50,757 nt of DNA from NCBI GenBank assembly GCA_020723105.1, contig DYJL01000022.1, positions 1-50,757 of the forward strand, written 5' to 3'. Shown here in pieces: positions 3,213-47,925 of this stretch; position 1 is the stretch's first letter, and every line of letters starts with the position of its first letter. A program made the position numbers and the translations under genes. Below the pieces are notes generated by a model, which was not told where the DNA came from, ran no database searches, and saw only the letters and a program-made list of their open reading frames with translations. The DNA is from Nitrospira japonica (GTDB taxonomy: Bacteria > Nitrospirota > Thermodesulfovibrionia > UBA6902).

Positions 3213-3950
3213 TTAGCTCCTCATTTGCGTAATGCTTGTAACGTCAATTTTCAACCACCTCTCAAGACGTATCATGATGACTGCCAGAGTGAGAGATATA
3301 CCAATATAGAAAATTGTTGCGAGAAAGGTGGCCTCGAGTCCGCGGAACGTAATTGATTCAATCTGCTGGGTGGCCCAGGTAAGCTCGGGCGCAGCTATTG
3401 CCATACAAAGAGAACTGTTTTTGAAATTATGGATCATCCTGGTCCCCAGAGGAGGAAGTATGGCCCTGAACGCCATAGGTAAAATTATGTATTGTATCTG
3501 CTGAAACCTGTTGAGGCCTGTAGAGACTGCAGCTTCTATATGGCCTCTCGACACACTTAGAATTCCGGTCCTGACAATATCAGAGACATAAGCAGAATTA
3601 TCAACAGTAAGCCCGAGGATACCGGCTATGACCGAATAATAAATATACTGATTCAGAATATCTGTCAGACCGGAAGGTAACATTTGAGGGAAAATGAAAT
3701 AAAAAAATAAAATCCAGAAGAGTCCCGGGATATTTCTCACAATCTCAACATATAATTTGGCAGGTATGCTTAAAAATTTAAATCTTGAGGTCCTCATGAT
3801 GGCAAGCGTTGTGCCAACAACAAGTGATAACACAGATGTCACAGCAGCTATCAGGAAGGTGAGCTTTACTCCGGTAATCAGCCATCCAAGAAAAGGTTCT
3901 CTAAAGGGGATGCTCCAGTCAAAGTCATATCTTAAATTGAGAAACTTCAT
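3213..3950 (-). CDS. amino-acid ABC transporter permease (HisM/GltJ family), first subunit
   Basis: The protein has 245 residues and about five membrane segments. It carries the family signature VEIVRNIPGLFWILFFYFIF and an EAA loop (AAVSTGLNRFQQIQYIILPM). Together with the following permease it would form the membrane channel for the binding protein encoded upstream. A GGAG ribosome site lies just before the ATG. The 225-base gap to the binding-protein gene contains three hairpins, which probably lower permease expression relative to the binding protein, as is common for periplasmic uptake systems. Confidence 0.93.
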   Translation of the reverse strand: MKFLNLRYDFDWSIPFREPFLGWLITGVKLTFLIAAVTSVLSLVVGTTLAIMRTSRFKFLSIPAKLYVEIVRNIPGLFWILFFYFIFPQMLPSGLTDILNQYIYYSVIAGILGLTVDNSAYVSDIVRTGILSVSRGHIEAAVSTGLNRFQQIQYIILPMAFRAILPPLGTRMIHNFKNSSLCMAIAAPELTWATQQIESITFRGLEATFLATIFYIGISLTLAVIMIRLERWLKIDVTSITQMRS

Positions 3951-5132: not shown

Positions 5133-5149
5133 AGCAAGGTTTATGCCAA
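5133..5149 (-). promoter_or_regulatory. sigma-54 (-24/-12) promoter of the amino-acid ABC operon
   Basis: On the minus strand the sequence reads TTGGCATAAACCTTGCT. This matches the consensus TGGCA-N6-TTGCW with exact spacing between the invariant GG and GC. The predicted start of transcription is near 5122, giving a leader of about 77 bases. The gene immediately upstream encodes an NtrC-type activator, which such promoters require. Confidence 0.8.
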
Positions 5150-5222: not shown

Positions 5223-6626
5223 TCATTCTTTACGCAGATTGCCACCGTAGTCTGCAAGCATTTTCTCTCTCAGGGTATTTCTTGAAATGCCGAGGAGTTT
5301 TGCGGCAAGGGCCTGATTGCCCCTAGTCAGTTCAAGGGCCCTCTTTACCAGAAGGTGCTCGAATCGTGAAACAGCTTTTTTATAAATGTCTTCTCCGCCT
5401 CTGCGCAGGATCTCATTTACAGCATCGGCTAACGCCTTATCAATATCCATTTCAGCTCTGCCAATCAGCCCTGTCTGTGACAGCCCTTCGCGGTCTTTTG
5501 TTGAAAGATACTTCCCTGCACATAAAACCATTCCTCTCAGGATAACGCTCTGAAGCTCCCGCACATTGCCGGGCCAGTCATATTTTTTAAAGTCATCCAG
5601 TATTTCAGGTGAGAGACCTTTGACTTCTTTTCCAAACTCCCGGTTAAATTTTCGGATGAAATAATTGACAAGGTCTTCAATATCTTCCTTTCTCTCCCTG
5701 AGCGGCGGCACGTGGATGCTGACAACATTTAAGCGCCAGTAAAGGTCCTCTCTGAATTCTCCTGTGCTGATCAACGATTCAAGATTTTTGTTTGTTGCCG
5801 CAATAATTCTGACATCTGTATTTATCATTTCACTTCCACCGAGACGCTGAAAAGATCCGTCCTGCAGAACCCTGAGCATCTTGGCCTGAAGAGTAAGCGG
5901 CATATCACCGATCTCATCGAGGAACATGGTGCCTTTGTCGCACTGTTCAAATTTCCCTATCTTTCTCGTATCAGCCCCTGTAAAAGAGCCTCTCTCGTGT
6001 CCAAAGAGTTCGCTTTCAAGAAGAGTCTCCGGAATCGCTGCACAATTAACAGGAAGAAACAGTTGGTTACTCCGCTTGCTGTACTGATGAACGGCCCTCG
6101 CAATCAACTCCTTCCCGGTGCCGGTCTCTCCGCGTAAAAGCACGGTGACATCGCTATCTGCAACCTGCCCGATTTTTTTAAAAATCTCAAGCATGGCAGC
6201 GCTTCTGCCGATAATTGTATCACCTTCTTCTGCTTCCCCTTCAAAAGTAACGGGAGTATTCATTCTCCCCGCTGCAATGGCTTTTTCAATAAGGGCCATT
6301 AACTGAGCATTGTCAACCGGTTTTGTGATGTAATCGTAGGCCCCGTACTTCATAGCTGTTATCGCTTTTTCAGAGGCGCTGAAGGCAGTCATTATTATTA
6401 CGACAAGAGATGGATGCATTGACTTCAATCTTTTGAGAGTCTCAAGTCCGTCCATCCCGGGCATGTTGATGTCCATGATGACAAGGTCAGGGCACACTCT
6501 CTCTGCTGCCTCTACAGCTGCCTCACCGCTTGAGGCTGTGATGACTTCGTAATCGTATCTGCCAAGAAGTTTTCTGAATGAATGAAGTATGCCAGCTTCG
6601 TCGTCAACTACAAGAATTTTGTCCAT
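5223..6626 (-). CDS. sigma-54-dependent response regulator, NtrC family
   Basis: The 467 residues comprise an N-terminal receiver domain (about 1-120; phosphorylated Asp in VIMDINMPG, conserved Lys in YITKPVDN), a central AAA+ domain (about 145-375; Walker A GETGTGKE, sigma-54 contact loop GSFTGA, Walker B MFLDEIGD) and a C-terminal Fis-type helix-turn-helix ([17 protein letters not shown]). It activates transcription by sigma-54 RNA polymerase after phosphorylation. The partner kinase gene lies six bases upstream. The nearest downstream gene has a sigma-54 promoter, so the ABC transporter operon is its likely target. Confidence 0.96.
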
Positions 6627-6632
6627 TTTTTA

Positions 6633-8027
6633 TTAATCTCCCCTCGGCAGTCTTACGGTAAACACCGTCCCTGCCCCCTCACTGCTGTTGAAAAATACCT
6701 TGCCTCCGTGAGATTTTACAATATTATATACGATTGACAGGCCCAGGCCAGTGCCGTCTTCCTTCGTTGTAAAAAACGGATCAAATACTTTCGAGCGTAT
6801 ATCGGATGGTATGCCAGCGCCCTTATCCCTGATAACTACCTCAATAAATTTGTCATCCGTTTTGCCTGACATCCAGATATCGCCGCCGCCAGGCATAGCC
6901 TGAACAGCATTCAGGATGAGGTTCAGGAATACGTGTTCAAGGAGCGCGCGGTCACCTTTAACTTCAGGCAGGTTCTCAAGCATATCCTTGTGCACCACTA
7001 TGTCATGCCTGCAAATGTCAAAAGCTGCAAGCGACAGCGCCTTTTCTGTAAGAGCATTTATATTGATATCCGCAATTTCAAAGTCCTTCTGTTTTGCAAA
7101 GCCAAGAAATTTTGTTATGATGGCGTCAATCTTCTCTATCTCCCTGTTGATAATCTTCGCATCCTCTCTTGTCATATCCGGCTGCTCTTTAAAGGCCTGA
7201 AACAGCATTTTAAGCGTAGTCAGTGGGTTTTTCAATTCATGTGCAAGCCCTGCTGAAATCTGCCCTATGGTTGACAGTTTTTCAGCCTGCAATAAATGAG
7301 TGTAAGTATATGTCTCTTCCATTTTCTCGTTGACGTTTTTTAACTCCATAGACAGTCTGTTAAAGTTGCGGGCAAGATAACCTATTTCATCACCGTAGGG
7401 GACATCTACACGCTTGCCGAACTCCCCCCTGCCAAGCACCTTTGTAAACTCAATAAATTTATTCAGAGGCTTTGTAAGCAGACGGCTGAAGATAAACGAT
7501 GCAATCACACCTGAAAGTGTTACAAGCATAATGATGGGCACAGTTATTTTTCGTACCTGCATAACCGTTTGTCTAAGGTTATCCTCTCTAATTCCCAGAT
7601 GAAGTTCTGATTTTGTACCATTGGAAACCTTTACCCCGACATCTCTGATATATCCTTTCTCGGTGTCGAGAAGCTGGATATTTCTTGACTTGTTGTTCAC
7701 AGGATTCCATGAAAGTATATCCGGCGGGATTTCCTTTCCGAACGTATGCGCAGCAATTATGCCTCCCTCATTTGTAACAAAGATATACTCTATATCATTT
7801 TCTTTTTTGAGTACTTCATTGAGGGCTTTCTTTGTCTCAGAATAATCTTTTAGCAACATATGATTGGCAACCCTGTCAGCGAGATTGCCGGCAATGGAAG
7901 TTCCCCTTTTCTCAAGCTCGTCTCTGAAAGCATTGATAATAACGCCTCTGATTGACAGTAATGTGAAAAAGACCACGTTGACGGCAATTGCGGTTGTAAG
8001 GAAAATTATTTTTGTTCTGAGTTTCAT
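6633..8027 (-). CDS. membrane sensor histidine kinase (HAMP, HisKA, HATPase)
   Basis: This is the partner kinase of the sigma-54 regulator that follows. One membrane helix spans about residues 7-25 and a second about 165-185, with a periplasmic sensor domain between them. A HAMP linker follows (RLLTKPLNKFIEFTKVLGRG). The H-box is GLAHELKNPLTTLKM, and the ATPase shows the N-box NLILNAVQAM plus DKGAGIP and GTGLGLSIV. The chosen start (8027) is the ATG just before the first helix, four bases after the stop of the PhnD-like gene, with GAAGGA touching it. A TTG at 8054 would add nine residues and overlap the upstream gene. Confidence 0.95.
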   Translation of the reverse strand: MKLRTKIIFLTTAIAVNVVFFTLLSIRGVIINAFRDELEKRGTSIAGNLADRVANHMLLKDYSETKKALNEVLKKENDIEYIFVTNEGGIIAAHTFGKEIPPDILSWNPVNNKSRNIQLLDTEKGYIRDVGVKVSNGTKSELHLGIREDNLRQTVMQVRKITVPIIMLVTLSGVIASFIFSRLLTKPLNKFIEFTKVLGRGEFGKRVDVPYGDEIGYLARNFNRLSMELKNVNEKMEETYTYTHLLQAEKLSTIGQISAGLAHELKNPLTTLKMLFQAFKEQPDMTREDAKIINREIEKIDAIITKFLGFAKQKDFEIADININALTEKALSLAAFDICRHDIVVHKDMLENLPEVKGDRALLEHVFLNLILNAVQAMPGGGDIWMSGKTDDKFIEVVIRDKGAGIPSDIRSKVFDPFFTTKEDGTGLGLSIVYNIVKSHGGKVFFNSSEGAGTVFTVRLPRGD

Positions 8028-8031
8028 TCCT

Positions 8032-8664
8032 TCAGCAACCCATATCCTTTGCAAGCACCCTCAACTTCTCTATCTCAAGTTCGTCAACTTCTATGAAGCC
8101 CGGCAGCATTTTTGTCTTATCCCAGTCCTGGAGCATATCTTTATGCTTTCCCTCTGGTTTAAATGCAAGCAGTGCGGCCCTGACAGCTTCAACTGTCCTG
8201 CTGTCAACCAGGCTGTTGTAAGCTATGATAATACCCGGATATGGCTCTGAAGTTCCTTTTTTATTAACACCTCTTACGAGATATCTGATTCCGTACCTGG
8301 ACTCGCCTATTATGTAATTAAGCGTGCCGATTGCAGCAAAGTGAGTGACGCCTCTGCCGAGGTCTTCTATTGTATCCTTATGTGTATTGGAGAATTTTAT
8401 GCGGAAACGCCGGCCCGTGGCGCCTTCAAGATATTTAAGCAGTGGAATATAAACCTTCTCATCCTCTTCTTTGGCCCCAGGCCTGAGGCCTAAACCAAAC
8501 CAGACAGTGTCCTGTGGAGGATATTCAGTTTCCTCTACCTTATCAAGGTTTTTTTTAGTAAGGTTAACCTTTTTTGCTTCTTCCTTCTTTGTACAGCCCG
8601 GCAACATAAGGAAAAGGAACATCAAGAAAATTATGACACGCCTGAGCGACAAGGTAGTAAGCAT
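8032..8664 (-). CDS. PhnD/phosphonate-binding-like lipoprotein, lacking the middle lobe
   Basis: The N-terminus has an arginine-containing region, a hydrophobic stretch and a lipobox (MLPGC), so the protein should be lipid-anchored. The body starts like PhnD-type binding proteins (VWFGLGLRP, YIPLLKYLEGATGRRF, GVTHFAAIGTLNYI) and ends like them (RTVEAVRAALLAF, ML). However, it is only about 210 residues, against 287 for the homologue at 40515. The segment corresponding to DLKGKRFAFGDPESTMG and the rest of the second lobe, roughly 100 residues, is missing in frame. It heads a tight operon with a kinase and a sigma-54 regulator, so it may be a sensory accessory rather than a transporter component. 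The first ATG (8673) lies inside the TATAAT box, so 8664 is preferred. Confidence 0.75.
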   Translation of the reverse strand: MLTTLSLRRVIIFLMFLFLMLPGCTKKEEAKKVNLTKKNLDKVEETEYPPQDTVWFGLGLRPGAKEEDEKVYIPLLKYLEGATGRRFRIKFSNTHKDTIEDLGRGVTHFAAIGTLNYIIGESRYGIRYLVRGVNKKGTSEPYPGIIIAYNSLVDSRTVEAVRAALLAFKPEGKHKDMLQDWDKTKMLPGFIEVDELEIEKLRVLAKDMGC

Positions 8665-10066: not shown

Positions 10067-11548
10067 TTATATCCGCTTTTTCGTATTCTTCAGTCTGCTG
10101 TTCAATGCCTGACGTGTGATGCCAAGAAGCGAGGCTGCGATTCCCTGATTGCCATTAGAGCGTTTCAAGGCCTCGGAAATCATAAATTCTTCAATCTCTC
10201 TCAGCGTAGGAAACCGACCGGAGATGTCCGGCATGGAAGTTGATCCGGAATTTGAAATTGAAATATCCGGCTGAGTATATTTCTCCTGCTTGCTGAAATA
10301 TTCTTTAATGCATCCTAATGACAGGACTCCTGAGCCATGCTTTGCAACAGCATCAAAGATTACTGCCTTCAGTTCGCGTATGTTGCCGGGGTAATGATAA
10401 CTGGAAAGCAAAGGTATGAGTTCATTTGGAGGAGTAGGTTTTTTCTTTTTCAGTGATTGCGCTGAAAGCTCCAGAAAATAATCTGCAAGCATCGCCAGGT
10501 CTTCCAGTCGTTCCCTGAGAGGGGGAATGTGAACCTGCACAGTGTTTAACCGGTAATATAAATCTTCCCTTAAGTTACCTTCCGACACCAGTTTATTGAT
10601 ATCACGATTAGTAGCCGCAATAATACGTGCATCACTCTTTTCCGGCAAGTCAGAGCCGAGGGGATAATAAGTGCCATCTTCAATCAAACGCAGGAGTTTA
10701 ATCTGAGACTTTATATTTAAATCCGCAAACTCATCAAGAAAGAGCGTACCGCCAGAAGCCCTGACTATAAGACCGTCCCGGTCTTTGTCCGCTCCTGTAT
10801 ATGCGCCCTTTTTATGGCCGAACAAGGTATCTGAAAAAATGGTGTCATCAAGTCCCGCTGCGTTAACAGCTACGAAAGCGCCTTTCATTCCGCTGATCTC
10901 GTAAATGGCCCTTGAAACAAGTTCCTTGCCAACTCCTGTTTCTCCGGTAACAAGGACCGGTTCCCGGGATTTTGAGATTGTCTCAATATAATGAAAGACC
11001 GCCCTCATCTTTTTGCTCTGTGTAAGGATAGATGAAAAGGCCTGCTCATATTCCAGCTTATCAGTGAGAAGATGTTGTCTCAGGGATAAAATGTGTTCTC
11101 TCAGAGATGTTATCTCTTCACGCAGGGAATTCAATTCCAGGGCCTTCTTTACACTGGATATGAAGCGGTTGTCTTCAACCGGTTTTACGAGATAATCGAG
11201 GGCCCCTTTTTTCATACACTCTACAGCACTCTCAACATCATTCGCTGCAGTTACTATGATAACTGCAATATGCGGAAACTCAGATTTAATTTCTTTGAGC
11301 AAGGCAAAACCAGGGATATGCGGCATGTTCAGGTCCAGAACAACTGCTGCTACATCTTCTTTGGCAAGCAACGGCAGGACCTTTCTGCTATCATTAACAG
11401 CCAGAATATTTTCAATCCCTTCGGTAAGAAGCATGGCCCTGTAACCAAGTAATATCTGCTGTTCGTCATCAACTAACAAGACTGGTGATGAATAATTGGT
11501 AATTGGCAATGGGTGACAGGTTATGGGTGATGGGTTATTTCTTTTCAT
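10067..11548 (-). CDS. sigma-54-type response regulator with repeat-derived N-terminus
   Basis: The receiver domain starts at about residue 23 (VLLVDDEQQ; Asp in AVVLDLNMPH, Lys in YLVKPVED). It is followed by a coiled stretch (SLREEITSLREHILSLRQHL), an AAA+ domain (Walker A GETGVGKE, loop GAYTGA, Walker B GTLFLDEFADL) and a Fis helix-turn-helix (GNQGIAASLLGITRQAL). GAYTGA is a conservative variant of the GAFTGA loop, so sigma-54 activity is likely. The first ~20 residues (SPITCHPLPITNYSSP) come from a seven-base-periodic DNA tract and look non-ancestral. The start overlaps the stop of the kinase gene by 14 bases. The target is unknown; the PEP-CTERM gene is next downstream. Confidence 0.93.
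   Translation of the reverse strand: MKRNNPSPITCHPLPITNYSSPVLLVDDEQQILLGYRAMLLTEGIENILAVNDSRKVLPLLAKEDVAAVVLDLNMPHIPGFALLKEIKSEFPHIAVIIVTAANDVESAVECMKKGALDYLVKPVEDNRFISSVKKALELNSLREEITSLREHILSLRQHLLTDKLEYEQAFSSILTQSKKMRAVFHYIETISKSREPVLVTGETGVGKELVSRAIYEISGMKGAFVAVNAAGLDDTIFSDTLFGHKKGAYTGADKDRDGLIVRASGGTLFLDEFADLNIKSQIKLLRLIEDGTYYPLGSDLPEKSDARIIAATNRDINKLVSEGNLREDLYYRLNTVQVHIPPLRERLEDLAMLADYFLELSAQSLKKKKPTPPNELIPLLSSYHYPGNIRELKAVIFDAVAKHGSGVLSLGCIKEYFSKQEKYTQPDISISNSGSTSMPDISGRFPTLREIEEFMISEALKRSNGNQGIAASLLGITRQALNSRLKNTKKRI
11482..11538. repeat. heptanucleotide-periodic tract inside coding sequence
   Basis: Read on the minus strand, the tract is a run of seven-base units such as ACCCATC, ACCCATA, ACCTGTC, ACCCATT and ACCAATT. 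It spans the stop of the kinase gene and the first codons of the response regulator. Confidence 0.65.
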
Positions 11549-46910: not shown

Positions 46911-47040
46911 ATAGGGTGTAGGGGGATAAGAATAAACTGATTAAGCGGCTTAGACTGGTTATTTTTAGAAAGAGGAGTTGGTGATATCACCAGGTTTATT
47001 GGGTAATTTCACCGTTTCCGGCTTGATACTTTATATATCA

Positions 47041-47184
47041 CTAATCCTTTGCAGTGCAGGTGGAACAGGACTTGCCGGAGCAGTAAGCTGTATATTCTTC
47101 CATATATTCAACAACATCCGAAGGCATCTCTATTCCGAGCTTCTTTAATTCATCTATGATTTCACAACTGCTTAACGCTAACAT
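47041..47184 (-). CDS. 47-residue Cys-rich protein under sigma-54 control
   Basis: From the ATG at 47184 (or the adjacent one at 47187) the product has 47 residues. A hydrophobic-acidic helix (IIDELKKLGIEMPSDVVEYM) leads to a cysteine tail (YCSGKSCSTCTAKD; Cys 7, 35, 40, 43). AGGAGG at 47190-47195 fixes the start. The sigma-54 promoter at 47210-47225 lies inside a longer open frame reaching to 47301, which excludes that longer reading. I do not recognise the family. The tail looks able to bind metal or form disulphides. Confidence 0.75.
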   Translation of the reverse strand: MLALSSCEIIDELKKLGIEMPSDVVEYMEEYTAYCSGKSCSTCTAKD

Positions 47185-47209
47185 CATTACCTCCTGTATG
47201 ATAGAAGAC

Positions 47210-47225
47210 GCAAATGTTATGCCAA
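47210..47225 (-). promoter_or_regulatory. sigma-54 (-24/-12) promoter of the 47-residue protein
   Basis: On the minus strand TTGGCATAACATTTGC matches TGGCA-N6-TTGC with exact spacing. The predicted start of transcription is near 47198, so the ribosome site (47190-47195) lies within an 11-base leader. Confidence 0.75.
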
Positions 47226-47437
47226 ATAACAACTCGTTGGTTTTACGTGCAATCCTGGTTATTGTTACTGATTTAATTGACAAAATCTGACAGTATGACA
47301 ATAAATTAGCAATTATAGAGCGCTTCTTTATAAAATTTGTGTATCAATCATGACACATAGTTAAGATCTTTTAACCCATCTTCCGCAGTTCAAGAGTTGA
47401 AAGTAAATTAATTCAATAGATTACGCTTCAGATCAGG

Positions 47438-47915
47438 CGATTTTCTTCACTACATTTTCGATAATCTTCGCTCTATTGGGCATAAGAATTTTCATCCTAT
47501 GCAGCAGCACCTTCAGTTCTTTTGAAGGTGTAGAGACCACTCTCATTCTGATGGTATTGTCTTTTGCAGGAAGCAATACATCAAGGGATTTTACTTCCCG
47601 CATCTCCTCAATGAATTTTCTTGGGGCAGTACCGAGGCCTCATGCCGAGATCGTTCTTTTCTGTCCTGAAGGCATCTTCCACTTCGGTCAAATGTTTTTT
47701 CCTGTTGTTGTCTCCGTAACTGTCACGTCAAACAAAGAAGCAGCGCGGCTGTTTCTCTCAAGTAACCGCCCGATCCTTCTTTCCGCCTTCTGCCGGTCTC
47801 TGAGTTTTCCCTGTTCATCAGTGTTAAAACAGCTATCGCCCATCAAACTAACATTAGCCAGAAGACTGGCATCCACAGCCGCGCCAACCTTATCAAATTC
47901 GCCATATCTAAAGGG
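47438..47915 (-). pseudogene. decayed IS4-superfamily (IS1634-like) transposase remnant
   Basis: Pieces of one transposase are spread over frames on the minus strand. First KAERRIGRLLERNSRAASLF (ending at a stop near 47687), then in another frame LTEVEDAFRTEKNDLGMRPRY with the catalytic Glu region, then VKSLDVLLPAKDN through HRMKILMPNRAKIIENVVKK to a stop at 47438. Frameshifts and an internal deletion show it is dead. The 5' part is missing. The plus-strand open frame over the same bases is a shadow. The gap 47302-47437 holds no gene. Confidence 0.7.
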
Positions 47916-47925
47916 ATAATAACAC

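Follow-up and report, generated by a model that had tools for sequence, protein, structure and literature searches.

A conserved small-protein family of Nitrospirota with a putative sigma-54 promoter and candidate activator and IHF-like sites

Results

A 47-residue protein gene with its own promoter

On the minus strand of the window (the whole stretch of DNA analysed, 50,757 nt), we identified a gene for a 47-residue protein that belongs to a conserved family and is preceded by a conserved sigma-54-type promoter with activator and IHF-like sites. This combination is secure on comparative sequence evidence, and the sequences of the members indicate that the regulated small-protein family is almost certainly real and not a product of chance. 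An earlier note on this DNA had described a near-consensus −24/−12 box, an AGGAGG sequence, an ATG and a 47-residue frame, all of which were located (Table 1). Annotation often overlooks proteins of fewer than 50 residues, and Nitrospirota is a phylum with few laboratory systems; for this tiny gene, the comparative proof is unusually strong for both coding and control.

Table 1. Features of the small-protein locus (positions in the window)
Feature	Position	Strand	Remarks
Gene for the 47-aa protein	47041..47184 (including stop)	−	Product MLALSSCEIIDELKKLGIEMPSDVVEYMEEYTAYCSGKSCSTCTAKD; frame conserved, under purifying selection; predicted two-helix fold
Shine-Dalgarno sequence AGGAGG	47190..47195	−	5 nt before the second ATG; comparable AGGAG sites in most relatives
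Expected transcription start	47198..47199	−	About 12 nt past the −12 C; predicted from the box position
−24/−12 sigma-54 promoter TTGGCATAACATTTGC	47210..47225	−	Exact GG-N10-GC; box conserved in relatives
IHF-like site AACCAACGAGTTG	47230..47242	−	One mismatch to WATCAANNNNTTR
Candidate upstream activator site TGTCAGATTTTGTCA	47278..47292	−	About 87 nt before the expected start; conserved
Third TGTCA half-site	47296..47300	−	3 nt further upstream of TGTCAGATTTTGTCA

The frame occupies 47184-47044 (−) and ends with CSGKSCSTCTAKD before a TAG stop codon at 47043-47041. It starts at an ATGATG sequence at 47187-47182 (−), within TAATG-ATG; of the two ATG codons, the second, with a 5 nt spacing from AGGAGG, is preferred. 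On the same strand, 14 nt separate TTGGCATAACATTTGC from AGGAGG. The locus gave no Rfam match to a structured RNA.

Distribution and conservation of the family

A search of 101 relatives recovered the frame from every one of the ten genus genomes and from most family genomes, and a profile search with inspection of more than 50 members placed it in 31 of the 37 genomes of its Thermodesulfovibrionia family. The same approach found no true member in G014, G016, G019, G021, G028 and G032; the weak matches in G028 and G032 were UPF0175-like proteins instead. Outside this family only a few members were detected (L067, L068 and L072). An alignment-based profile scan of genome contigs yielded at least 19 loci; among the matches listed, 18 were titled as Nitrospirota-type and one as Deferribacteres, the named loci being mostly from groundwater and subsurface Nitrospirota genomes. 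Several genomes hold at least two copies, and that of the window holds one. Since related sequences are not independent, all member counts given here overstate the number of events.

Changes at the three codon positions numbered 462, 272 and 898 in the family, with a dN of 0.17-0.43 against a dS ranging from 0.8 to saturated and a dN/dS of about 0.1-0.3 where dS was measurable, which shows purifying selection at the protein level. The earlier note had made its case depend on conservation of the frame and the −24/−12 box in relatives, and both are conserved. None of 29 members gave a Pfam or NCBIfam match above cut-off, in agreement with the remark that the protein resembles no known family, and it is right to call the family undescribed in these two libraries. 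Searches of solved structures and folds returned nothing significant, and likenesses to IF2_N, UPF0175 and phi29 gp16.7 were rejected as short and below the family cut-offs.

In the AlphaFold2 model, residues 6-15 and 21-38 form helices (mean pLDDT 75.8, pTM 0.42), and the Cys tail has low confidence. Residues L4, E8, L13, G17, Y31 and Y34 are invariant across family members, and the conserved part is a predicted N-terminal helical hairpin of about 35 residues, SCEILDELKKLGI-xxPSELxEYLxEYxxY. The stress that the earlier note laid on the Cys-rich CSGKSCSTC tail did not hold beyond the closest relatives, since most members have few or no Cys residues there; judged from these sequences, the tail is variable and the Cys-rich label is a lineage-specific detail. 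A metal- or redox-sensing peptide acting through the tail (CxxxxCxxC) and Cys7 is improbable: three tail Cys residues occur in the window protein and three near relatives, Cys7 is common to the SCE group and the MATLT paralogue group carries CxxC, but most members, including L007, L008 and L012 of the same genus, lack tail Cys yet keep the promoter and hairpin. The conserved Cys pattern of Cys-rich metal-binding small proteins was likewise not found in the family, tail Cys being absent in most members. The pairing of a conserved N-terminal part with a variable C-terminal tail would also suit the precursor of a ribosomally made modified peptide (RiPP), with a conserved leader and a variable Cys-bearing core. 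This is very improbable, because no maturation or export gene constantly adjoins the gene in relatives, the tails are often devoid of Cys and the module occurs fused N-terminally to PilZ domains.

The −24/−12 box and the leader

The TTGGCATAACATTTGC 16-mer occurs once in the 3.13-Mb genome. The pattern TTGGCAYN5TTGC gave 11 matches in the genome versus none for the reversed control pattern, and some of them precede plausible targets (an apparent ammonium transporter, an amino-acid binding protein and a multihaem cytochrome). Upstream sequence was available for 52 members; the box reached a score of 9 or more in 39 of them and of 8 or more in 42. At 9 or more, dinucleotide shuffles predict 0.31 and control genes gave 2 of 338, comparisons that exclude only composition and chance as an explanation of the counts. 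When the search was anchored on [TA]GG[CT]A alone, 39-40 of 40 members proved to have TGC at −12.

The same stretch can be read as an ordinary sigma-70 promoter (TTGGCA, 16 nt, TATCAT) with an incidental −24/−12 likeness, and a promoter scanner scored it 10/12; a −10-like hexamer was present in 10 of 42 members versus 6.2 in shuffles. We consider this exceedingly improbable: TGC at −12 is nearly invariant in sequence and spacing and the −10 hexamer is not, and the activator and IHF-like sites are conserved as well.

From the end of the box to the ATG, the family median is 24 nt, indicating leaders of about 12-13 nt in most members, in which the ribosome site would lie almost at the very 5' end of the transcript. 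We infer a leader of about 13 nt for the window gene, with room for hardly anything besides the ribosome site. The proposal in the earlier note of sigma-54 control of a tiny, short-leadered protein is thus well supported, by the frequency of the box, by the upstream sites and by the presence in the genome of one rpoN (1 Sigma54_DBD match) and 25 activators (Sigma54_activat matches), two of which lie in the window (5223-6626 and 10067-11548); the specific induced role that it ascribed to the protein would presumably follow.

Other sigma-54-like boxes were seen in the window. One, TTGGCATAAACCTTGC at 5134-5149 (−), comes directly behind a two-component activator pair (5223-8054) and precedes an amino-acid ABC transporter binding protein; another, TTGGCACAACGCTTGC at 3802-3817 (−), falls within a permease frame (3213-3950) and is probably due to chance. 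We rejected a sigma-54 promoter antisense to the gene (47061-47076, accompanied by GGTNANNTNACC sites at 46980 and 47002), since its weak box is not kept in relatives. Just 3' of the gene stand two 12-bp palindromes, GGTGATATCACC and GGTAATTTCACC (46980-46991 and 47002-47013), serving no obvious gene; this class of site precedes the sigma-54 promoters of paralogues L101-L103, and a similar form precedes a cytochrome promoter of this genome (L090).

Candidate activator and IHF-like sites

Upstream half-sites are enriched in members, with 31 TGTCA versus 7.8 expected and 24 TGACA versus 7.2. Exactly one copy of TGYCRRATTWTGTCM was found per genome in the ten genus genomes, eight of them at the tiny gene, with one control match in all. 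It stands at about −87, within the range of about 80-200 nt before the start at which sigma-54 activator sites lie. Between activator site and box, an IHF-like site was present in 25 of 42 members, versus 5.2 expected and 4 when the other strand was read. The IHF consensus WATCARXXXXTTR is quoted in PMC7962754, where an IHF site between activator site and box is an arrangement described for RpoN promoters. A dedicated sigma-54 activator for the tiny gene is probable. In three 73-residue relatives with a basic C-terminal extension (L094, L112 and L030), TGYCA-N3-TGRCA inverted repeats upstream of the box present a clearer form of activator site.

The TGTC repeats led us to consider PilR, the activator of type IV pili. 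In the pattern searches used to predict a regulon, the tiny gene was the only match in this genome to TGTC-N4-12-TGTC followed by a box, and none of the pilin-like genes found there had a comparable promoter. As hallmarks of PilR, PMC6058289 names TGTN11AGA and GTCT elements. Neither a TGTCA nor a TGNCA string occurs in the main text of a study that surveyed the sigma-54 activators of Desulfovibrio vulgaris (PMC4641369).

Discussion

Where the flanks are long enough, almost every genome has the gene between a divergent htpG and a gene for a small TPR protein, with ligA and often cinA next in line; the window carries a ChaN-like gene in place of the TPR gene. The constant neighbours in relatives are htpG, the TPR protein, ligA, cinA and trmH. 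The gap between the gene and htpG is about 800 nt in the window versus about 300-400 nt in several relatives, and short overlapping frames, one of them transposase-like, lie in it at 47433-47919. Given the constancy of htpG and the lack of a PilZ gene at this locus, it is quite possible, if less than probable, that the same sigma-54-controlled gene encodes a stress-induced regulator or inhibitor of one non-PilZ enzyme or regulator, such as HtpG or a client. However, trmH, ligA and cinA are neighbours of much the same constancy, so that shared ancestry alone may explain the synteny, and paralogues at other loci have no htpG next to them.

The only functional clue found for the family is fusion with, and adjacency to, PilZ. 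In L026 and L093, the hairpin module is fused N-terminally to PilZ domains, and in four members of a paralogue group of 54-93 residues (L091, L095, L107 and L109, from two lineages), a PilZ gene follows on the same strand 93-143 nt downstream; Pfam confirmed PilZ in the fused and neighbouring paralogues. This group lacks the sigma-54 box, several of its members showing a TTGACA-type sequence instead. The box is retained in the MATLTKKEI paralogue group of five, where three members carry another upstream site, GGTNANNTNACC. An apparent 381-residue fusion in L100 was not used because its open frame runs through masked bases. The member at L100 (G033:C1:738900-742000, a stretch with masked bases) lies directly upstream of apparent electron-transfer genes of sulfate reduction (Qmo-like). 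In the genome of the window, near −24/−12 boxes, GTGGCATGTTAATTGC and TAGGCATTAAATTTGC, are found upstream of a response-regulator-PilZ protein and a PilZ gene pair (L137, G000:C86, and L125, G000:C79, respectively).

Because paralogues are fused with or adjacent to PilZ, the best explanation overall, plausible though somewhat short of probable, is that the window gene encodes a sigma-54-controlled small hairpin protein acting as a PilZ adaptor; we infer the step from these paralogues to the window protein. As a guess at function from sequence, and a tentative one, we accordingly favour a small adaptor of cyclic-di-GMP/PilZ signalling whose synthesis a sigma-54 activator would switch on when needed. 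Against it, the orthologue at the htpG locus has no adjoining PilZ gene, the PilZ-adjacent paralogues lack the sigma-54 box, the predicted fold has a pTM of just 0.42 and resembles no solved structure; moreover, some of the PilZ proximity could be coincidence, as PilZ genes are common in this genome (13). In bacteria at large, sigma-54 is associated with controlling the cell exterior (PMC3162934); this fits a cyclic-di-GMP role of the peptide, but does not prove it.

No transcription starts at a sigma-54 promoter until DNA bending has carried a bound activator to the box, where it opens RNA polymerase. Under the adaptor model, the tiny gene would stay silent until a sigma-54 activator binds TGTCAGATTTTGTCA; bending would bring this activator close, RNA polymerase would be opened at the −24/−12 box, and the activating signal would produce a pulse of the 47-residue peptide. 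Its hairpin would dock on a PilZ-type cyclic-di-GMP receptor, or on the target of that receptor, and change the output in surface, pilus or polysaccharide control, with the variable tail giving lineage-specific contacts. More doubtful is a wider version, in which the family would comprise lineage-specific PilZ-partner peptides whose module is fused to, placed beside or, as here, detached from receptors, the detached form answering to a dedicated sigma-54 activator; a transient signal would then supply peptide that re-tunes cyclic-di-GMP receptors. The PilZ fusions provide a concrete, testable link to cyclic-di-GMP signalling, and the promoter of the tiny gene is a ready, conserved reporter for whichever sigma-54 activator controls it.

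Comparison with known systems

UPF0291 (YnzC of Bacillus subtilis) is also a small two-helix protein and was the top Foldseek match, but its E-value of 1.7 is not significant and no sequence relation to the 47-residue protein was found. The IF2 N-terminal domain and the UPF0175 C-terminus share with the family a short KEILDELKKLGI-like helix motif, for which profile-profile comparison gave E-values of 2.5e-9 over 19 columns and 2.5e-6 over 33, in alignments picked as the best scorers. These are other proteins in another context, the family has no Pfam match to either, and the likeness is probably a convergent helix pattern. With PilZ domain proteins (PF07238), the family shares the hairpin module, as an N-terminal extension of two of them or encoded just upstream in paralogous loci; the window protein itself differs in having neither a PilZ domain (no match to PF07238) nor a PilZ neighbour. 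The closest parallel in control is with promoters of sigma-54 (RpoN) and enhancer-binding proteins that use IHF: as in those systems, we found a box, an upstream activator site, an intervening IHF-like site, rpoN and many activators. Unlike the usual systems of this kind, the promoter described here would drive one protein of about 47 residues from a leader of about 13 nt, and its candidate activator site is nearly private to the tiny gene in the genus.
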